Assembly: GCF_004785645.1 (NCBI RefSeq)
Contig: NZ_SRPE01000007.1
Span: 1 to 64,000, forward strand
DNA length: 64,000 bases
Direction: 5' to 3'
Source: Empedobacter tilapiae
GTDB taxonomy: Bacteria; Bacteroidota; Bacteroidia; Flavobacteriales; Weeksellaceae
Part shown: positions 41,651 to 52,267 of the stretch, piece after piece
Layout: every line of letters starts with the position of its first letter
Position numbering within the stretch: position 1 is the first letter of the stretch
The notes under the pieces: generated by a model
Database searches by the model: none
What the model was told of the DNA's origin: nothing
Seen by the model: the letters and a program-made list of their open reading frames with translations, nothing else
Made by a program: the position numbers and the translations under genes

Positions 41651-42418
41651 TTATCTATTCATATTCATCCAATCAATCCAACTATTAATTTGAGTTTTAC
41701 TTACAAAGACAGCTTGTTCTGTTTCAGGTTTTGGACAAAGATGAAGTTCTACTTTTTGACTTGAATGTTTGATGATTACATTAATTGCATCAATGTGGAC
41801 TATAAATTTTCGATTGATTTTAAAGAAAATGTTTTCGTCTAATTTATTTATAATATCCTTTATTGTATCATCGTAAATATAGGTTTGCTCATCTTTCGTT
41901 TTTATAAAAAGATGTTTTCCTGATGCAAAAAAATAAGCAATTTCATGTTCCCCTACAGAACGTAATTTGTTTCCATTTGTCACTAAAAAACGATGTATAA
42001 TCTCAGACGGAGTATTTTGTAAAACTACAATAGATTTTAACGTTGACGAAATATCAAAACTCTCTCGAATGGTTTTGAATTTATGTAAAGCTAAATGCAA
42101 TTCATTTATTTCAAATGGTTTTAGAATATAATCAATCGTGAAATGCTTGAAGACTTTCATCGCATATTCATCGTAAGCTGTAGTAAAAATAATTGGGGTA
42201 AGAATTTCAACTTCCTGAAAGATTTCAAAACTTTTTCCATCTCCTAAATGAATATCCATAAAAATCAAATCAACCGAATTTTCTCTAAAAAACTCAGTTG
42301 CTTGCTTTGTAGAACGTAAAACTGTAATCGAAGAAATGTCAATAATAGCTTGCTCTTCTAATAAGTTTTTTAGATAAGTAACAGCCAATAATTCGTCTTC
42401 TACAATTACTATTTTCAT
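41651..42418 (-). CDS. LytTR-type response regulator
   Basis: About 255 residues from the ATG at 42418; the longer frame begins at a TTG. The receiver domain has the acidic pocket (KIVIVEDELLA), the phospho-acceptor Asp in LIFMDIHLGDG near residue 54, the Thr in PIIFTTAYDEYAM and the Lys in DYILKPFEINEL. The C-terminal LytTR DNA-binding domain follows (LRSVGEHEIAYFFASGKHLFIKT, FFKINRKFIVHIDAI). It is the natural partner of the LytS-like kinase encoded 7 kb upstream at the other end of the same gene run. A hairpin between susD and this gene probably lowers its share of the transcript. Confidence 0.92.
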   Translation of the reverse strand: MKIVIVEDELLAVTYLKNLLEEQAIIDISSITVLRSTKQATEFFRENSVDLIFMDIHLGDGKSFEIFQEVEILTPIIFTTAYDEYAMKVFKHFTIDYILKPFEINELHLALHKFKTIRESFDISSTLKSIVVLQNTPSEIIHRFLVTNGNKLRSVGEHEIAYFFASGKHLFIKTKDEQTYIYDDTIKDIINKLDENIFFKINRKFIVHIDAINVIIKHSSQKVELHLCPKPETEQAVFVSKTQINSWIDWMNMNR

Positions 42419-42433
42419 ATTAAGCAAAAGTAT

Positions 42434-42475: not shown

Positions 42476-43795
42476 TTATAAATGAGGATTATTGAGCTTA
42501 GCTGCTTGTGGAATTTCTATTGTATAACGAACATCATTTTTCTGTAGAATATATTCTTTATCCGAAATATGATGTATAATTTGCTTTTGATCTGCTCTAC
42601 GTAAATCGTACCAACGTTGTCCTTCTAATGCAAATTCTCTGAAACGTTCATCTAAAATAAACTTCATCAATTCAGTAGAATTCATCACAGAAATTTCAGC
42701 TTGTAATTTTGCAAAACCAGTTGATGTGTAACGATTTTGTAAAACAGAAAACAATATTGCTTTAGCTTGATCTAATTTGTTTAATTTCAAATACGATTCA
42801 GCTTTAATAAAATATAATTCAGCTACACGGAAAGATGTTTTAAACTCTGAATTTCCACCTTTAATAATTTTATATTTCGAATCGGATTTCTCAAAATAAA
42901 GAGAAAAACGTAAATCATTTTCAGTATTATAACTGTTCAACAATTCAGGTGAGACATATGCCATAAATTGTACAGCATTGTTCAATGTGTTGTCTAAAGC
43001 TAAAATAGATTCAGTAGATGTATAATGATTTGGAACTAATTTTGTCGTATTTAAATTAACTAAATCACTTTTAATTTTAAGTGCTTCATCAGAAAAATCA
43101 ATTGCTTTTTGCCATTCATTTTTATACAAAGCGATTCTTGCTTCTAAAGCATTTAAGGCTACTTTAGAAAATCTATAATTCAACCCAGCCAATTGCTGAT
43201 CCATTTTCATCAATTTCGTCGCTTGATCTAAATCAGACTCAATATGATTATAAACTTCTTGAACAGATGATGGTTTAAGCGTTGCTTCTAAATCTACTTT
43301 TAAATTTAAAGGAACTCCCCTATCCGTATTTGATGTTGCTGAATTATACGGTTTACCATATAAATTAACCAAATCAAAATATGCATAAGCGCGTAATGCG
43401 TATGCTTCTGCTAATAATTGATCTTTTTCAGCAGAGTTTTTCATTGTTTTTGGTCCTTCGTTGATGATTTGATTCGCATAAAAAATCACCGTATAAAAAC
43501 TAACCCAAGGAAATTGAATAGATATTTGATCTGGATTTGTATCTTTCCATTGTGCAATTTCACGATAGGAAATAAAGTCATTTGATGATTCATTCAATGT
43601 AACCTCATCAGTGCGTAAAGCTGTCAACGACTTATGTGTTGGATATTTTGAATAAGCATTTGTTAATACCATTCGATAATCTTCTACCGTTTTTGGAATC
43701 ACTTTTCCATCTGGTTCAATATCCAAATAATTGTCACAACTAACTGCTGTAAAGCTAACTACAACTACGCTTAATAATAAAAATATTTTTTTCAT
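42476..43795 (-). CDS. SusD/RagB-family outer-membrane nutrient-binding lipoprotein
   Basis: 439 residues. Lipoprotein signal VVVVSFTAVSC, then DNYLDIEPDGKVIPKTVEDY, the typical SusD start. TPR-like helices (LLAEAYALRAYAYFDLVNLYG) and the C-terminal FILDERFREFALEGQRWYDLRR are family hallmarks. SusD proteins cap the SusC barrel and bind the ligand at the cell surface. Slightly shorter than glycan-binding members (about 500-550), which is more in line with the peptide-binding RagB type. It follows susC by 12 bases. Confidence 0.92.
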   Translation of the reverse strand: MKKIFLLLSVVVVSFTAVSCDNYLDIEPDGKVIPKTVEDYRMVLTNAYSKYPTHKSLTALRTDEVTLNESSNDFISYREIAQWKDTNPDQISIQFPWVSFYTVIFYANQIINEGPKTMKNSAEKDQLLAEAYALRAYAYFDLVNLYGKPYNSATSNTDRGVPLNLKVDLEATLKPSSVQEVYNHIESDLDQATKLMKMDQQLAGLNYRFSKVALNALEARIALYKNEWQKAIDFSDEALKIKSDLVNLNTTKLVPNHYTSTESILALDNTLNNAVQFMAYVSPELLNSYNTENDLRFSLYFEKSDSKYKIIKGGNSEFKTSFRVAELYFIKAESYLKLNKLDQAKAILFSVLQNRYTSTGFAKLQAEISVMNSTELMKFILDERFREFALEGQRWYDLRRADQKQIIHHISDKEYILQKNDVRYTIEIPQAAKLNNPHL

Positions 43796-43807: not shown

Positions 43808-46800
43808 TTAGAAAGAAACATTAAGTCCTACTGTTACAGATTTTGCAATTGGTTGTGCATAAATATTTCCGTAAGTTTCTGGATCAAAATAACCTTTATA
43901 ACCATTACTAAACACAAATAAATTACGTCCTTCTAAACTAAAACGAGCGCTTTTGAAACCGACAATCTCAGCATATTTATTTGGTAAAGTATACCCAAGA
44001 CGAATACTACTGATTCGCATATAACTAATTTCCTTCGCCCAAATGTCTAATAAATTGTACGCATTTGCATTGTTTCCTGCAAACCATTTGTTTGTCATCC
44101 AGCTATCGTTATCGCCTTTAATTGGACTTGTAATCCCTGGAAGTGTAGAACCTGCTTCGAAAATATCTTGTGTATAATTACGACCTGGATCCAATTCCAT
44201 TCCACGATAAGAAGGCGTTTTCATCACCGTTTGTTTTAAATTGAACGCAGCAGAAATCGTTAAATCAAAATTGTGAATTTTAAAATTATTGATAATACCT
44301 CCTGTGAATTTAGGATCGCGATCTCCGATGTATGTAAATAATTTACGTTTTTCTTCGCTTGTTAATTTAGAATCAACAATTTCTCCTGGTAAAAAGTCTT
44401 CGTATAAGTCATATAAAGCAAAAAATTCTTTTGCAGAAACTTTTTCATCTCCTTTCCAGAACATTGGATTTCCGTGTTCGTCAAATCCAGCTGTTTTTAA
44501 AGCAAAAATTGCATTTACAGGTAAACCTTCACGAGATGGAATTAAACTATTTTCACGTTGTTGTTCTTTAAGAACTTTACTTTTATTGTGCGCAAAATTA
44601 ATTGTTGTCGACCATTTAAAGTTCTTCTTATCAATGTTGCGTGTTGTTAGAGCAATCTCAAAACCTTTGTTTGTCAATTCTCCCCAGTTCACCATTGTAT
44701 ACTCAAAACCTGTTTCTAAAGGCGTTTCGCGCATACTAATCATATCTGTTCCTTTACGATTGTAAACATCAACAGCAAGGTTGATACGATTTTTGAAAAG
44801 ACCTAAATCTAACCCAACATTTGTATTCGTTGTTTTTTCCCAACGCAACAAATCATTCGGTAAATTAATCGCATTGATAATATCTTCTTTATTACCTGGC
44901 AAAATTGTTGCATCGTTATATTCACCAATAAAGAAAGGTGAAGTGTTACGATCAATATTTCCTTGTAAACCATAAGAAGCGCGTAAACGAAGATTCGAAA
45001 TGAAGTCAACATTCTCCATAAACGACTCTTTTGAAACTAACCAAGAAGCTGAAACTGCCCAAATTGGTAAGTATTTATATTTTTTATTAACTCCGAATAA
45101 ATTTGTACCATCATAACGAACACTACCAAAAACAGTATATTTTCTGTCTAATGTATACGAAGCAGTTGCATATGTAGATACATAAGCATTCTCATCCGTA
45201 GGCATTTCTCTGTACGTTTCGTAACGTTTTTCTGCAGCAAAACTTGAATTAGGGAAAACAATTGGCGTACCTGTTTTAGTCGTTTTATTGTAACCAAAAG
45301 CACGTGTTAAAGTCGTCTCATTTTGTGTATGACGAATCTCTGTACCAGCCATCAAATCGATTTCATGACGATTGTTAATTGTAGTACTGTATGTTCCTTG
45401 TAACTTCCAGTTATATTGGAAAAATTCGTTGTCCCAATTTTGCTTAACTCCTCCGTCTGGTAAGAAATACAAATATTGTCCAGATTTATAATAACGCGTT
45501 CCTTCTCTCATTTTACGTGTAAAATAAGTTTCTTGCTCAGCGTATTTTTCTGTTTTGTTACTATCGTACTGGATCCCTAGTTGTGATGTTAATTTTAAAC
45601 CTTTTGCTAATTGATAATTAAGATCAATAATACCTTTTAACGAACGGTTTTTTAATGTATAATTTGTATTTTCTCTTTCTTCAATAAAATTGAACGGAAC
45701 AGAACGATCTTCAAATCCATCAATATCGTTATCATAACGATAAGAACCATCTGCATTAAATGGAGATAAATATGGATTCGCATTTCGAGAATAATTAATC
45801 GGATTGATTGATGCATCAGCATCTGTTACAAAAGATTTTTTATCACTTGAAGTTGCAAAAATAGAAATCCCTACATCTAATTTATCGTTAAGTTTATAAT
45901 TGTTTTTTAAAGTAAGATTATAACGCTCAAAACCTGTTCCGATTGTAGTTCCTTGCTCATCATAATAACCCAATGAGAAGTAATAATCAGAACGATCATT
46001 TCCTCCAGAAATACTCAAACCATATTGTGTATTAATTGCATTACGATACAATAATTTCCCCCAATCGGTTGTATTATTTCGTAAAGAATTAATTTGATTT
46101 TGTGTGATAAGATCTAAAGAATTGAATCCTCCATTTCGTAAAGCATTTAATTGGCCATTCTTTTGCAAAATTCGCATTACTTCACCTTTATCTGTACGAT
46201 ACGTTAAATCATCTCGACCAGCAAGTATTAATTCAAGATCAACTTTCTGTGAAGCATTTAGTAAGTTTAAACGACCAAAATCAGGACGAGCCGTTACAAA
46301 TGTATTCGCAGAAAAATTAACCGTCATAGCGCCTTTTTTACCACGTTTTGTTGTAATAGAAATTACACCATTTGCAGCTCTTGCTCCATAAATAGCCGTT
46401 GCAGCAGCATCTTTAAGAATTGTAATATCTTCGATATCGTTTGGATTTAATCCAGCGATAGAAAAGTTTTGCAATTGATCGATGTTATCTTTATCACTAA
46501 AGTTTGGTACATCATTTCCTTCTAATGGTAAACCATCAATCACCCATAACGGATCTTGTGGACCTGAAAGAGAAGCCGTACCACGAATCCTAATTTTACT
46601 TGGAGAACCAGGCGAACCAGTTTCTGTAGAAACAGCTACACCAGCAATTTGTCCGCTTAACAATTGGTCAACACTAGCAACACCAGCTTGTTGAATATCA
46701 TCCATTTTTACAGTTGATACTGCTGATGTTAGTTTACGTTTTTCGATTTTTTGATAACCTGTAACAACAACTTCTTTTAGATCATTATTTTCTGGAAGAG

Positions 46801-47149
46801 CTTGACCTAAAGTAGATTTTAAGCTCACATGATATGTTGTTAAATCTGTAGAAAGTTCAACCAATTTAGAATCGTAACCTAAATAACTAATTAATACAGA
46901 TTTTGTATTTGCAGGAACCTCTAACGAAAAGAAACCATCTTCATCTGTAACAGTACCAACCGTTACACTTTCTATAATTCCTTTTTGATCTGTTTTTGTT
47001 GAAATTGATTGAGCTTCAATTTTAACAGACGCACCAGCAATTCCAGCCAACGATTTATCGTCTTGAACCGAACCTGTAATCACTCTCTTTTCTTGAGAAA
47101 ACGCAATACTTGCCGCAAAAAGTGGCAAAAGAATGAGTGTCTTTTTCAT
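43808..47149 (-). CDS. SusC/RagA-family TonB-dependent outer-membrane transporter
   Basis: 1113 residues. Signal peptide TLILLPLFAASIAFSQ, then a CarboxypepD_reg-like N-terminal domain (VITGSVQDDKSLAGIAGASV, VPANTKSVLISYLGYDSK) that is longer than usual because of an insert near residues 50-65. The plug follows (LKEVVVTGYQKIEKR, a TonB-box-like start; QLLSGQIAGVAVSTETGSPGS; IRIRGTASLSGPQDPLWVIDG), then a 22-strand barrel to the C-terminus (SVTVGLNVSF). It imports large ligands using the proton motive force through TonB. Paired with SusD and nine bases after an exported protease gene, so the likely cargo is peptide. Confidence 0.93.
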   Translation of the reverse strand: MKKTLILLPLFAASIAFSQEKRVITGSVQDDKSLAGIAGASVKIEAQSISTKTDQKGIIESVTVGTVTDEDGFFSLEVPANTKSVLISYLGYDSKLVELSTDLTTYHVSLKSTLGQALPENNDLKEVVVTGYQKIEKRKLTSAVSTVKMDDIQQAGVASVDQLLSGQIAGVAVSTETGSPGSPSKIRIRGTASLSGPQDPLWVIDGLPLEGNDVPNFSDKDNIDQLQNFSIAGLNPNDIEDITILKDAAATAIYGARAANGVISITTKRGKKGAMTVNFSANTFVTARPDFGRLNLLNASQKVDLELILAGRDDLTYRTDKGEVMRILQKNGQLNALRNGGFNSLDLITQNQINSLRNNTTDWGKLLYRNAINTQYGLSISGGNDRSDYYFSLGYYDEQGTTIGTGFERYNLTLKNNYKLNDKLDVGISIFATSSDKKSFVTDADASINPINYSRNANPYLSPFNADGSYRYDNDIDGFEDRSVPFNFIEERENTNYTLKNRSLKGIIDLNYQLAKGLKLTSQLGIQYDSNKTEKYAEQETYFTRKMREGTRYYKSGQYLYFLPDGGVKQNWDNEFFQYNWKLQGTYSTTINNRHEIDLMAGTEIRHTQNETTLTRAFGYNKTTKTGTPIVFPNSSFAAEKRYETYREMPTDENAYVSTYATASYTLDRKYTVFGSVRYDGTNLFGVNKKYKYLPIWAVSASWLVSKESFMENVDFISNLRLRASYGLQGNIDRNTSPFFIGEYNDATILPGNKEDIINAINLPNDLLRWEKTTNTNVGLDLGLFKNRINLAVDVYNRKGTDMISMRETPLETGFEYTMVNWGELTNKGFEIALTTRNIDKKNFKWSTTINFAHNKSKVLKEQQRENSLIPSREGLPVNAIFALKTAGFDEHGNPMFWKGDEKVSAKEFFALYDLYEDFLPGEIVDSKLTSEEKRKLFTYIGDRDPKFTGGIINNFKIHNFDLTISAAFNLKQTVMKTPSYRGMELDPGRNYTQDIFEAGSTLPGITSPIKGDNDSWMTNKWFAGNNANAYNLLDIWAKEISYMRISSIRLGYTLPNKYAEIVGFKSARFSLEGRNLFVFSNGYKGYFDPETYGNIYAQPIAKSVTVGLNVSF

Positions 47150-47158
47150 TTCTATATC

Positions 47159-49738
47159 TTACTTTAAAGCTTCTTTAATACGGATGATTAAATCAGCATA
47201 ATGCGCTTTTGTAGACGCATCTCCATTATTCTTTTTCTTGTTTAACAAAGTTAACACGCGTTGCAATTCTGCTCTTTTATAAGTTGTCACTTCCGACACT
47301 CTTTTCATAGAAGAATAATTGATATTACGCGCCATTTTTTCTTCGTCTAAATAATTACAGATAGTTGGTACTCGTAGGTTTTGGTCAATTGTAAGTCCTG
47401 CAACAGTTGTTTTCTCAAATAATTTGTTTGTTGAAACAATTAAGGCATCAACATAATTTTTCTGAGTCATTTTTTCAAGAATTGTTAAGTTTGATTTTTT
47501 ATCAAAAGCTGCACTTCTAACTTGATCAAATAAATTTTCAACTGTATATATTTTTTCGTTTGAATTTAATTCTTGTTGTTTCAATTCATTTTCTAACATG
47601 CGCAATAAGCGATCGTCTGTAAATAAATTATAAATCAATCCATATTGCATTTCTCTTGCTAATGTATACGGCGTTTGCTCGTAAGGTCCCATTGGAGAAT
47701 TTTTGATAGCATACGTTTTATCTAAAATATCATTGAAAAATAACCATTTTGGCAAATTAATCACATTTTCATTTAAATAATTAACTGCTTTACGTTGCAT
47801 ATCCGCAGGAACTGGTTCGTATGCTTTTTTATCAATTCCGAAATATGTATTATTCAAATAAATTCCACCAACATTTGCTAAAACATGATTCGAATATAAA
47901 TCCCATTGTCCGATTGTTTGGTAATATAATTTCCCCGTATCGATATAGCTTTTCCCATCTTCGTACGTCCATTTCAAAATATTTTCTGAAACACGTCTTA
48001 GGTTTTTCATACCATATTCACTCGCTAAAACAGCATCATCACCTAAATCTTCAGATTGAGAACGAGGATCGATTGTACTTAAATAACTTTGTTGTTCACC
48101 ATAGAAATACATTGGATCATCTTCGTGTTTTTCAATCATTTTACGAAGCGAAGCTTTCTCTGTTTCTTGATTTGGAAACCAACGATATCCCCACTCGATT
48201 GCATATTTATCATACAAACCGATTTTTGGCGTAATCGCTGTAACACCATCTTCTGGCTGTGCTACATAATTGTAACGCGCATAATCCATAATAGATGGCG
48301 CAGTACCTCCCATTTTATCCGTAAATTCTTTCGAACGTAAAGATTCTACTGGATAAGAAAAAGATGCGCCCATATTATGTTTGAGACCAAATGTATGACC
48401 AACTTCGTGAGAAGATACAAATCGAATTGCTTCTCCCATATGTTCGTCACTAAATTTATTTCCTCTTGCTTTAGGATCAATTGGACCAGTTTGAATACGC
48501 ATCCAATCATGCAAAGAAGTCATTACATTATGCCACCAAATAATATCAGCCTCTAAAATTTCTCCACTACGCGGATCAACAACAGAAGGTCCCATCGCAT
48601 TCGATTTTGGAGAAGCTGCATACGTAATTACAGAGTAACGTACATCATCAATATCAAAATCTATGTCATCAGTCGTTGGTTCTTTAGCTATAATTGCATT
48701 TTTAAAACCAGCTTGCTCAAAAGCAACTTGCCAATCGTGTACACCTGCAATAATTTTTTGGCGCCATTGTTTTGGTGTTGAAGGATCGATGTAATAAACA
48801 ATCGGTTTCTTAGGTTCAACTAATTCACCTTTCAAATATTTCTCTTTATCCTCATCTTTTGGTTCCAAACGCCATTTTGTAATAAAACGTTGATCTTCCA
48901 TTTTGTGTTGAGCATCATTAAAAAACCAATGTTTTTCTGTGAAATACCCGACACGATTATCTGCTAACCTAGGTTGCATAGGAGTTGTCGAAAGTAAAAC
49001 AATATTACTTGTAACACCTAAGGTAACAGCCAAATCTACCCCTCCTTCATTCACACTTGTCGTTAACTGAGACTTAACTACAATGTTTTCTGGAAACGTT
49101 TTTACATTTTCCACATACGATAGATTTGCCTTTACCGAACCTCCTAAACCTACATTCGTTAATACATCATTAAAACTTTTTTGATTTCCATCAAAAATTT
49201 TGTTCACTTTAATCGCAACAGCTGTCGAATCGTTATTTTGAGCTTCTATATCAAAAACCTCTATAATCGATTCTGAAAAATTATCTTTTACTGAAGTTGT
49301 AATTGCATCATTTTTAGGCGAAGAAACTTGTGGAACAATTGTTTTAACCCACACTTTTTTAGCTACTTTATCATGATAAAAAGAAATTACTTTATTTTCG
49401 TAATTCATTCCTTTATTCAATCCTGCCTCATTTACTTGCATTGGAACTTGAGATAATTTATTAACAACCAGAAATTGGCGTCCAAATAAACTATCTGGAA
49501 TTTCGAAATAGATATCTGTTTTAACTTGAATTGTATTGAACAAACCTTTCTTATAAGTTCCTTTCTTTATTAATTCATCAATTTTTTTAACTTTCGTTAC
49601 AGTCGAATCTTTTTTCTCTGTTTTATCTTTTTCAACTTTTTTTTCAACTTTTTTTTGTCCATAAACAACTGCCGAAGACATAGCTAAACCAAGATATAGT
49701 GCTAATTTATAATTCTTTCTTTCCTTATTCTGACTCAT
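47159..49738 (-). CDS. Exported zinc metalloprotease (DUF5117/DUF5118 type)
   Basis: 859 residues. Signal peptide (LALYLGLAMSSAVVYGQ) with a lysine-rich stretch after it, then DUF5118/DUF5117-like regions (VKTDIYFEIPDSLFGRQFLVV, PIVYYIDPSTPKQWR) and the catalytic site SSHEVGHTFGLKHN near residue 450, a full HExxHxxGxxH metzincin zinc motif. A helical C-terminal region (LREMQYGLIYNLF) follows. These proteases are widespread in Bacteroidota and often encoded beside SusC/SusD pairs. It would cut proteins at the surface or in the periplasm into peptides for uptake. A LytTR-like operator lies upstream. Confidence 0.92.
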   Translation of the reverse strand: MSQNKERKNYKLALYLGLAMSSAVVYGQKKVEKKVEKDKTEKKDSTVTKVKKIDELIKKGTYKKGLFNTIQVKTDIYFEIPDSLFGRQFLVVNKLSQVPMQVNEAGLNKGMNYENKVISFYHDKVAKKVWVKTIVPQVSSPKNDAITTSVKDNFSESIIEVFDIEAQNNDSTAVAIKVNKIFDGNQKSFNDVLTNVGLGGSVKANLSYVENVKTFPENIVVKSQLTTSVNEGGVDLAVTLGVTSNIVLLSTTPMQPRLADNRVGYFTEKHWFFNDAQHKMEDQRFITKWRLEPKDEDKEKYLKGELVEPKKPIVYYIDPSTPKQWRQKIIAGVHDWQVAFEQAGFKNAIIAKEPTTDDIDFDIDDVRYSVITYAASPKSNAMGPSVVDPRSGEILEADIIWWHNVMTSLHDWMRIQTGPIDPKARGNKFSDEHMGEAIRFVSSHEVGHTFGLKHNMGASFSYPVESLRSKEFTDKMGGTAPSIMDYARYNYVAQPEDGVTAITPKIGLYDKYAIEWGYRWFPNQETEKASLRKMIEKHEDDPMYFYGEQQSYLSTIDPRSQSEDLGDDAVLASEYGMKNLRRVSENILKWTYEDGKSYIDTGKLYYQTIGQWDLYSNHVLANVGGIYLNNTYFGIDKKAYEPVPADMQRKAVNYLNENVINLPKWLFFNDILDKTYAIKNSPMGPYEQTPYTLAREMQYGLIYNLFTDDRLLRMLENELKQQELNSNEKIYTVENLFDQVRSAAFDKKSNLTILEKMTQKNYVDALIVSTNKLFEKTTVAGLTIDQNLRVPTICNYLDEEKMARNINYSSMKRVSEVTTYKRAELQRVLTLLNKKKNNGDASTKAHYADLIIRIKEALK

Positions 49739-49768
49739 TCAAACGTTAAATTATCATTAATTATGGCA

Positions 49769-49776
49769 TAAACTTA
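49769..49776 (-). promoter_or_regulatory. Weak -7 box of the protease-SusCD operon
   Basis: Minus-strand TAAGTTTA, one mismatch to TAnnTTTG, 30 bases before the protease ATG. No TTTG at the -33 position, as expected for a promoter that needs an activator. Confidence 0.4.
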
Positions 49777-49806
49777 ATAGCTGTTCTTTTATAATAATAG
49801 TTTTTG

Positions 49807-49838
49807 GGAGTGAATGGATAATATTTTGGAGTGAACGG
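49807..49838 (-). promoter_or_regulatory. LytTR-like operator: 11-base direct repeat, 21-base pitch
   Basis: On the minus strand the copies are CCGTTCACTCC (49838-49828) and CCATTCACTCC (49817-49807), 10 of 11 bases alike and 21 bases apart, i.e. two helical turns. LytTR proteins bind paired 9-base repeats with about this spacing, and ACCGTTCAC fits the LytTR half-site consensus at eight of nine positions. The pair fills the space between the kinase stop and the -33 region of the protease promoter. Confidence 0.6.
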
Positions 49839-51443
49839 TTATTTTGAGTCAATGTAAGGTAAAACGCAAACAAATTCTTCCTTTTCAACTTTTGTTGAGA
49901 AATTATAGATTTGATAAAATTTATAGATTTTTAGTAAATATTTTAAACCAAATTTTTCATTTTCAATTGCTTTATTTTTTTTCTGGAATGTATTTTTGAC
50001 GATAATAAAATCTGATTTTACATCAATATTTATTATCAAAGGTTGATCAATTGTAGCAATATTATGTTTAATTGCATTTTCCACAACAATTTGTAAAGCT
50101 AAATATGGAATATTTTTTTCTAAACTTTTTGAATCTTCTATCTGTAAATCAAAAATCAATTCTTCTGAAAATCTACTTTTATGCAAATCCATATATTGTT
50201 CAATAAAGTTTAATTCATTTTTTACCAAAACAACATTCTCCTTTGGAGGAACTATAAGGTAACGATAAATTTTAGAAAGATTCATTGTGAATTTCTGTGC
50301 ATTCTCCTTGTTCAAACCAATTAACATATAAAGTGAATTCAACGAATTAAATAAAAAATGTGGATTAATTTGATTTTTTAATTGTTGCAACTGCGTTAAA
50401 GTATTTGCATTTTTAATCTTTTCATTTTCAATTAGCAATCTGTTTTTTTCTTCAATTATAGATGCTTTTTCTTTGTAAGTTTTAGATGTTATCTTATTAA
50501 ATAACAAGAATATAATAATAATTAAAAAGACAGTTCCTAAGAAAATAAAACTGATATAAAATTTAGTACGTTCTACTTTTTCATCAATAATATAACTTAA
50601 ATGATTAACGACAATATATCCATCAAAATTTTTGGTATGCAAAGGTTTAATAAAACGTTTTATTTCTGTATCTTTTATAAATTCAGATGAAGCTTCGTTT
50701 AATGTATATTTATCTTGGGGAAAATTAGATTTAATTGTACTTGTTATTGTGTCATTTACTTGTATATCTGTAAATTCGAAAATATTTTCACCAATAAATT
50801 TTTCATTTGGATGTGTAATACAAATTCCATCTTTATTAAAAACATATACATAATTCGTTGAAGTAACATCTATTGTTGTAAAAAAATGATATAAATCGTA
50901 TAAATTTATAGTTGAACCATAATACATATTTTTACTTTCTGACAATTGTATTGAATCATAGTTTATCCAATATAATGTATCCTTATAATCTAGTAAAAAG
51001 TTGTTGATTTTTTGTTCTTTAGAAATATAAATTGAATTGAATTCGGTAAGATTAGATTGATTAATCGTTTTGGCAAGAATACTTTTATCAGTTAACTTTT
51101 CTTTTTTGGGATCATAAGTAGTAAACCAATCATTTCGAACTAATTTTCTGTTCGAATTTAATTCGTTTAAAACTAAAAAGTGATCTGCAAAATTCTTTTC
51201 ATCACTTTTTTTTACTACATTCTTAAGAACTTCTTGATATTCTTCTATATTTTTAAATTCAAACTCAATTGCTTCAGATTTTCGTAAAAATCCTTTTAGA
51301 ACAAAATCATTATTACTTTTTTGACTTTCATTATTAATTAAAAAACTTAAGATAACAAGAGCAATAATTGCAATAATACTTACAATTAAAGCAATGACAT
51401 AAATTGATTTATTTGATAAATTTAAATGAGAACGAATTGACAA
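49839..51443 (-). CDS. LytS-like sensor histidine kinase
   Basis: About 534 residues. A first membrane helix (YVIALIVSIIAIIALVILSFL), a periplasmic sensor region of about 250 residues with a Cache-like end (YVYVFNKDGICITHPNEKFIG), a second helix near residue 300 (FIFLGTVFLIIIIFLLF), then the His_kinase domain with NPHFLFNSLNSLYMLIG (phospho-acceptor His) and an HATPase-like end (LALQIVVENAIKHN as N box, FGLKYLL as G box). The last part is short, but both boxes are there. The longest frame starts at a TTG inside the promoter, so I use the TTG at 51443. It pairs with the LytTR regulator at the far end of the locus. Confidence 0.88.
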   Translation of the reverse strand: MSIRSHLNLSNKSIYVIALIVSIIAIIALVILSFLINNESQKSNNDFVLKGFLRKSEAIEFEFKNIEEYQEVLKNVVKKSDEKNFADHFLVLNELNSNRKLVRNDWFTTYDPKKEKLTDKSILAKTINQSNLTEFNSIYISKEQKINNFLLDYKDTLYWINYDSIQLSESKNMYYGSTINLYDLYHFFTTIDVTSTNYVYVFNKDGICITHPNEKFIGENIFEFTDIQVNDTITSTIKSNFPQDKYTLNEASSEFIKDTEIKRFIKPLHTKNFDGYIVVNHLSYIIDEKVERTKFYISFIFLGTVFLIIIIFLLFNKITSKTYKEKASIIEEKNRLLIENEKIKNANTLTQLQQLKNQINPHFLFNSLNSLYMLIGLNKENAQKFTMNLSKIYRYLIVPPKENVVLVKNELNFIEQYMDLHKSRFSEELIFDLQIEDSKSLEKNIPYLALQIVVENAIKHNIATIDQPLIINIDVKSDFIIVKNTFQKKNKAIENEKFGLKYLLKIYKFYQIYNFSTKVEKEEFVCVLPYIDSK

Positions 51444-51455
51444 AATATTTTTTTG

Positions 51456-51483
51456 CAAAAGTAAGTGATGTTATTAAATCAAA
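51456..51483 (-). promoter_or_regulatory. Promoter of the sensor kinase gene; shifts the start codon
   Basis: Minus strand: TTTG (51483-51480), 16 bases, TACTTTTG (51463-51456). The -7 box covers the TTG at 51458, so translation most likely starts at the next in-frame TTG at 51443, a short leader downstream. Confidence 0.55.
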
Positions 51484-51541
51484 AAAGAAATCATCGCTTA
51501 TATAACATAACAAAATTTCTTCATTTACAATATGATATAAA

Positions 51542-51575
51542 CTTAAAAAATCTCCCAAAAGGGAGATTTTTTAAG
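51542..51575 (-). terminator. Strong hairpin left from a decayed gene
   Basis: Perfect 15-base stem (CTTAAAAAATCTCCC and complement) with an AAAA loop. It starts three bases after the stop of the decayed frame at 51578 and has no intact gene to serve. Confidence 0.75.
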
Positions 51576-51577
51576 TT

Positions 51578-51727
51578 TTATGACCTGTTATTAATCGAAA
51601 TAAAATGTGGTCATGCCAAATACAACAAAATATGAATAAAACTTCCTGCAGCCTCTTCAAATCCAAAATAACCAACTGTTCAATATGTAAGTTGGATTGT
51701 AGCAATTGTTATTACTAAATCCCTTAT
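51578..51727 (-). pseudogene. Decayed small membrane protein gene (lmo0937/DUF5670-like)
   Basis: A 50-codon minus-strand frame with two internal TGA codons (codons 16 and 39) and ATA where a start ATG would be. Read through the stops as Trp, it gives RDLVITIATI, TVGYFGF, and AAGSFIHILLYLA. This is close to the small lmo0937/DUF5670 membrane proteins (about 50 residues, helix, WxxG-F, GxxIHxLLxxA, helix). Both stops fall where Trp codons (TGG) could have changed to TGA by single mutations. A matching terminator follows. No other feature explains this stretch. Confidence 0.5.
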
Positions 51728-51787
51728 AATAGATGATTTTAAAGTGGTTATATATTGTAAAAACAATTGTAATGATTCAATTATAAA

Positions 51788-52267
51788 TTAAAACATTGGA
51801 TGTTGATTTGCAGATTCTTTCGGAACATCTTGTTGCACATCCCAATGTTCAACTATTTTACCATCTTTTAATCTAAAAATATCAATTACAGATTTTAGTG
51901 AACCATCTGGATTAGTATCTTTAATATGCAAGAAGACTAAATCTCCTTCTGCAGCAATATGCTGAACATCTATTTTATTTTTTGGAGCATCTTTAAACCA
52001 AACTTCCGCTGCTTTCTTAAAGGCAGCAGAACCATCTGCAACAGTCGGGTTGTGTTGTATATATTCTGGAGCAATATACTTATCAACAGCTCTTAAATCT
52101 TTATCTCCAAACATCTGTTGATAAAATTTGAGTACAATCTCTTTATTGGATTCAATTTCTGAATTTACATTTGTTTGGCTTGTTTCTGTTTTATTTGTAC
52201 AACTTACCATCTGAGTTGACAATAAAATTGTTGAACCAATTATAATTGGAATAATAATTTTCTTCAT
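51788..52267 (-). CDS. SnoaL/NTF2-like lipoprotein
   Basis: 159 residues. Lipoprotein-type signal (IIIGSTILLSTQMVSC), then a SnoaL-like cone fold: NKEIVLKFYQQMFGDKDLRAVDKYIAPEYIQHNPTV, DVQHIAAEGDLVFLHIKD and VIDIFRLKDGKIVEHWDVQQDVP. This is the usual pattern of SnoaL-like polyketide-cyclase relatives, which bind small hydrophobic molecules; many are simply annotated as ester cyclases. The conserved His and Asp of the pocket (QHNP, EHWD) are present. Substrate unknown. Confidence 0.82.
   Translation of the reverse strand: MKKIIIPIIIGSTILLSTQMVSCTNKTETSQTNVNSEIESNKEIVLKFYQQMFGDKDLRAVDKYIAPEYIQHNPTVADGSAAFKKAAEVWFKDAPKNKIDVQHIAAEGDLVFLHIKDTNPDGSLKSVIDIFRLKDGKIVEHWDVQQDVPKESANQHPMF

Follow-up and report, generated by a model that had tools for sequence, protein, structure and literature searches.

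A conserved direct repeat as the predicted LytTR operator of a protease-SusC-SusD operon in Empedobacter tilapiae

The window, by which we mean the whole 64-kb stretch of Empedobacter tilapiae DNA that was analysed, carries five genes on the minus strand that together encode a two-component pair, a protease and a SusCD transporter:

49839..51458, minus strand: sensor histidine kinase (Pfam His_kinase PF06580) with a Cache-like sensor, for which the Pfam matches lie below the curated cut-off and a moderate structural model agrees
47159..49738, minus strand: Met-zincin metalloprotease, first gene behind the predicted operator (Pfam DUF5118/DUF5117/DUF4953)
43808..47149, minus strand: SusC-type TonB-dependent transporter (Pfam)
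42476..43795, minus strand: SusD-type lipoprotein (Pfam)
41651..42427, minus strand: LytTR response regulator, the proposed ligand of the operator (Pfam Response_reg and LytTR; comparison with BtsR)

The kinase model is of moderate quality (mean pLDDT 74.8, pTM 0.47), and a fold search with it returned kinase domains together with Cache domains from chemoreceptors for amino acids and urate, matches that are too loose to point to a particular kinase ligand. Among solved relatives of the protease there is one marginal match, to ECXA (E 0.0084). The named relatives with a kinase match are Empedobacter brevis and E. falsenii, on which basis genome group g1 is termed Empedobacter below. Upstream of the kinase gene lies a gene for a SnoaL-like protein (51788-52267), which is matched in one (L018, 80%) of the seven other Empedobacter-group loci long enough to include this region, the L021 locus being cut.

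In the gap that separates the kinase gene from the protease gene lies a direct repeat, CCGTTCACTCC-N10-CCATTCACTCC, on the minus (coding) strand at 49807-49838, with a pitch of 21 and 10 of 11 positions identical. Direct reading of the DNA thus bears out the repeat, its pitch and its location as given in a preliminary description of this region, and also the -7 box with one mismatch and no -33 element proposed there, since no TTG occurs 17-23 nt before the box in the window. The elements are:

49828..49838, minus strand: promoter-distal half-site of the predicted operator, CCGTTCACTCC (direct reading; all 43 loci compared share C..TCACTC)
49807..49817, minus strand: promoter-proximal half-site of the predicted operator, CCATTCACTCC (direct reading and locus comparison; pitch 21 to the distal copy)
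49769..49776, minus strand: -7-like box TAAGTTTA, which fits TAnnTTTA and differs from TAnnTTTG at one position, lying 31 nt beyond the CACTC core of the operator on its downstream side

On the plus strand the two copies read GGAGTGAATGG (49807-49817) and GGAGTGAACGG (49828-49838). The distal copy adjoins the kinase gene, its first base being the one next after the stop codon, so that the copy and the last A of that codon together read ACCGTTCAC. When the 100-bp gap was subjected to 20,000 dinucleotide shuffles, a 10/11 repeat at pitch 21 arose in 0.17% of them, one at any pitch of 20-23 in 0.7%, and one at pitch 21 with a unit of at least five G+C in 0.005%. No other pitch-21 10/11 pair with such a G+C content is present in the whole 64-kb window. 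Moreover, a degenerate form of the operator pattern occurs as a single copy in the 3.7-Mb genome even when three mismatches are allowed.

As a standard for scoring the half-sites we used what we take to be the LytTR consensus, nine positions of which one is free, with G at the fourth. The two copies match it at nine of nine and eight of nine positions, slightly better than the eight of nine reported earlier for one copy. The pair total is 17 of 18; a second minus-strand pair in the window also scores 17, however, and a plus-strand pair scores 18, so that the strict consensus score was dropped as the main argument. Alone it is weak evidence for an operator, and the decisive evidence for the predicted operator is instead its conservation.

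We compared 43 syntenic loci, comprising nine from Empedobacter, 19 from other members of the same family (16 of the 76 regulator-bearing g21 genomes, two of g12 and one of g26) and 15 from a second family (f3/g35, probably Flavobacterium, although this is our guess), the last being every f3/g35 genome of the order sample described below with a regulator at least 51% identical. The decayed locus L071 (genome G009) and the distant regulator relatives L102-L105 were kept out. Several imperfect loci are included: the kinase gene is cut by a contig end in L021, lies in two frames in L080 and contains one stop in L023, the protease gene contains one stop in L070, and the SusD gene lies in two frames in L022; L023 is left out of the kinase alignment, its gap still being counted. 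The gene order kinase, gap, protease, SusC, SusD, LytTR regulator is found in all nine Empedobacter, all 19 same-family and all 15 f3/g35 loci. Within the genus, the kinase is matched at E 1e-60 or better in nine of 14 genomes, and each of these nine has the syntenic operon. When the genus was scanned with two mismatches allowed, these nine genomes each gave a single, perfect match to the operator and the other five gave none; the reversed control pattern matches once (G007).

Poor conservation of the repeats in syntenic loci had been named beforehand as evidence that would count against the operator, and the outcome is the opposite. Both repeats, in the form C-N-Y-TCACTC twice at pitch 21, are present in the same gap in 43 of 43 loci, and in the distant loci most of the remaining gap sequence has diverged while the repeats are kept. 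In both half-sites the leading C and the following T, C, A, C, T and C are invariant over the 43 loci, the two bases between them being A/G/T and C/T. The usual core form is CC-N-Y-TCACTC; in five of the 15 f3 loci the distal copy has A or G in place of the initial C. Information content over the same-family loci, 28 in number, is 2.0 bits at each of the C, C, T, C, A, C, T and C columns of both half-sites and 0.7-1.6 at the third and fourth positions, as against 0.25-1.41 bits for spacer columns 12-21, with one exception at 2.0. The fourth position, G in the consensus assumed above, is mostly A or T among the relatives. Directly after the 9-mer, all 43 loci have TC. Agreement with that consensus ranges from seven to nine of nine positions for the distal copy and from six to nine for the proximal one. 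Taken as a 9-mer followed by 12 nt, the unit recurs at pitch 21 in every locus (counting the unit as 11 nt leaves a spacer of 10 nt).

The -7-like box is found after the operator in all 43 loci, 31 nt away in 35 and 32 nt away in eight. At the best of four offsets it matches at six of six fixed positions in 16 loci, five of six in 26 and four of six in one. A TTG at -33 spacing occurs in four of 27 same-family loci and is absent from 23 (L024 and the 15 f3 loci were left out of this count), and a sigma-70 scan of the locus gave promoter matches at shuffle level. The available part of PMC9723704 gives -12 to -5 as the position of the -7 box. The repeats therefore lie upstream of the promoter, itself predicted, at about -44 to -74 and centred on -59. 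This geometry bears on the sign of regulation, about which conservation is silent. The co-encoded regulator might bind as a repressor or dual regulator rather than as an activator, and transcription of the kinase gene could read through into the operon, because a terminator scan of 49600-51900 found no terminator-like sites. We consider this unlikely, given that the operator stops some 44 nt short of the predicted start and leaves the -7 box uncovered, at a constant 31-32 nt from it, and that the -33-spaced TTG is missing from 23 of 27 same-family loci, as expected of an activator-dependent promoter. It seems exceedingly improbable that the repeats act in RNA, as a processing or stability element at the 3' end of the kinase transcript. 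Such a role would fit their position directly after the kinase stop codon in the window, and at this codon or near it in the f3/g35 loci. The copies are direct rather than inverted, however, terminator-like sites are lacking in the interval scanned, and the exact pitch of 21 and the unchanging distance to the -7-like box downstream are constraints of the DNA type.

The association of site and regulator was followed across 296 genomes of the family. The regulator (E at most 1e-50) is found in 89 of these, including two partial matches (G217, G294) and two with a stop (G247, G009), and the site in 88, in exactly one copy each; all 88 site-bearing genomes have the regulator, and none of the 296 has the site without it. 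The pattern had been fixed on 28 loci, and out of sample it matched once in 60 of 61 further regulator-bearing genomes, the single miss being the decayed G009. It was not matched in any of the 207 family genomes that lack the regulator, and its reversed control gave no matches. These counts support the earlier proposal that the repeats are the operator of the local LytTR regulator, a reading that remains a prediction from sequence: the site is there in 43 of 43 syntenic loci and 88 of 89 regulator-bearing family genomes, and the exception is decayed. In that exception, the Empedobacter-group locus L071 (G009:C1:2834955-2848716), the whole operon has decayed; the kinase gene is in pieces, the protease gene is lost, the SusC and SusD genes are incomplete, the regulator gene contains a TGA, and the operator is gone.

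A sample of 395 genomes from the order, 20 of them shared with the family sample, gave a similar result. The pattern used here had been relaxed after inspection of the 15 f3 loci, because the first pattern missed five of them. The site accompanies 35 of 35 regulator orthologues with at least 51% identity, and the relaxed pattern is matched in 36 genomes, the extra one (G576) having no regulator at that level of identity and a chance-like match. Around four weaker regulator relatives (41-44% identity), neither the site nor protease, SusC or SusD is found, a kinase-domain match being present at one of them (L105). The Fisher p value for co-occurrence, 1e-75, is far too small, as the genomes are related and the events are not independent.

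An unlinked DNA-binding protein might instead recognise the repeats and control the operon. The binding partner of the site is, after all, deduced, and co-occurrence with the regulator equals co-occurrence with the whole operon. That such a protein is responsible is nevertheless very unlikely. A global regulator would hardly be expected to have a single site per genome, and the repeat length, pitch and half-site fit the LytTR operators described in the accessible parts of PMC4847170 and PMC6193735. In addition, ten family genomes encode a protease 54-57% identical and no such regulator, and the site is present in none of them. Four of these operons, from other genera of the family, were read (L106-L109); they contain protease, SusC and SusD genes, and the stretches examined contain no kinase or regulator match (E 1e-5) and no site-like pair, those of L106 and L109 stopping at a contig end just past SusD and that of L109 beginning shortly before the protease. 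A further genome (G100, protease 80%) was left out because its upstream stretch reads N. The site thus goes with the two-component pair, not with the transporter genes, which favours the co-encoded LytTR regulator as its ligand.

The predicted operator resembles several characterised LytTR sites. According to the portion of PMC4847170 available to us, such sites are mostly paired direct or inverse repeats of 9-11 nt, 11-13 nt apart, with no common consensus, and table 1 of that paper gives the E. coli BtsR (YehT) site of yjiY (btsT) as ACCGCTTA-N13-ACCACTCA, pitch 21. The same arrangement, ACCGCTTA-N13-ACCACTCA at pitch 21, is read in the E. coli genome sequence. As far as that source goes, the two systems share a direct repeat, a pitch of 21, similar half-sites, a LytTR response regulator and a transporter as target; in L020 the BtsR half-site ACCACTCA even occurs twice at pitch 21. 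Scored against what we assume to be the BtsR half-site, ACC[GA]CT[CT]A with a spacer of 13, both half-sites are perfect in one of 43 loci and single half-sites match at five to eight of eight positions, the pitch agreeing in all 43. In contrast to BtsR, with which it matches at 56 of 233 aligned residues, a distant relation, the regulator here would act on a protease-SusCD operon and on a half-site extended by a TCACTC tail. Its kinase, unlike BtsS, has Cache-like Pfam matches and a Cache-like model domain, and no LytS membrane domain by Pfam. The distant regulator and the Cache-like sensor imply that this is not a BtsS/BtsR system, though it would work like one, and the similarity of the half-sites may be partly coincidence.

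Operators of the same build are also known from the LytTR Regulatory System (LRS) of streptococci and from LRS-like operons in Bacteroides thetaiotaomicron and B. ovatus. The accessible part of PMC6193735 describes LRS operators as direct repeats that precede the operon promoter and are 11-13 bp apart, with ACCTCTTAG-12-ACCACTTAA as that of S. mutans HdrR, and the B. thetaiotaomicron LRS-like site as two 11-bp units with 11 bp between them, followed by TGTA-19-TATCTTTG. Judged by that account, an LRS regulator is paired with an inhibitory membrane protein and no kinase, whereas our locus encodes a histidine kinase and a regulator with a receiver domain, and the Bacteroides sites differ in their pitch of 22, their sequence and their -33-like element. 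The predicted operator centre near -59 resembles that of the S. aureus AgrA sites, for which the part of PMC4227749 consulted reports paired direct repeats at agr P2/P3, centred near -60, preceding a sub-optimal promoter. AgrA differs in having a -35/-10 promoter and a quorum-sensing target. The sequence of the AgrA site is also different from that of the operator here.

Taken together, we consider it very probable that the local LytTR regulator has its operator here, at a site that is conserved in two families and present once per genome wherever scanned. We are, moreover, confident in regarding the repeat pair as a dedicated, single-target operator through which the co-encoded regulator would activate protease-susC-susD, although binding and activation are both deduced, as are positive feedback, phosphorylation of the regulator and the kind of signal. 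On stimulation, the Cache-sensor kinase would phosphorylate the LytTR regulator, which would then occupy both half-sites as a pair on one helix face (21 bp being two turns) at about -44 to -74. Bound there, it would recruit RNA polymerase to a promoter with a -7 box and usually no -33 element, turning on protease-susC-susD. With one site per genome and one operon, this would be a dedicated switch. The regulator gene would also be turned on where it belongs to the same transcript, giving positive feedback. In two of the 15 f3/g35 loci (L089, L094), unrelated genes on the opposite strand, for a sensor kinase and a receiver protein in one case and a lipoprotein-like ORF in the other, lie between the SusD and regulator genes; the regulator is therefore outside the transcript there, and positive feedback would not be general.

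Control of SusCD transporters is usually ascribed to sigma/anti-sigma pairs or to hybrid two-component regulators, and we know of few transcription-factor sites that have been worked out in this bacterial group. We slightly favour the view that the locus represents an undescribed dedicated two-component switch of the Flavobacteriales, in which a Cache kinase and a LytTR regulator act through a single operator on one protease-SusC-SusD operon. This kind of switch is already known. The instance itself was not met in the literature, a weak sign of novelty, as the search covered titles and abstract openings of open-access papers, among which no description of the operon or site was found. An exact, testable operator, promoter and regulator are now proposed for a SusCD/protease operon, and the 43 aligned sites (103 including pattern-only matches from the family scan) could calibrate searches for LytTR sites in Bacteroidota. 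As the half-site resembles that of BtsR from proteobacteria, part of the LytTR recognition code may be barely changed between phyla. Natural operons with and without the regulator, furthermore, offer a ready comparison for signal and substrate. Across the loci the kinase is diverging much faster than its neighbours, with an orthologue identity of 38-84% compared to 56-98% for the protease or SusC, as if the sensor changes and the transported substrate does not.
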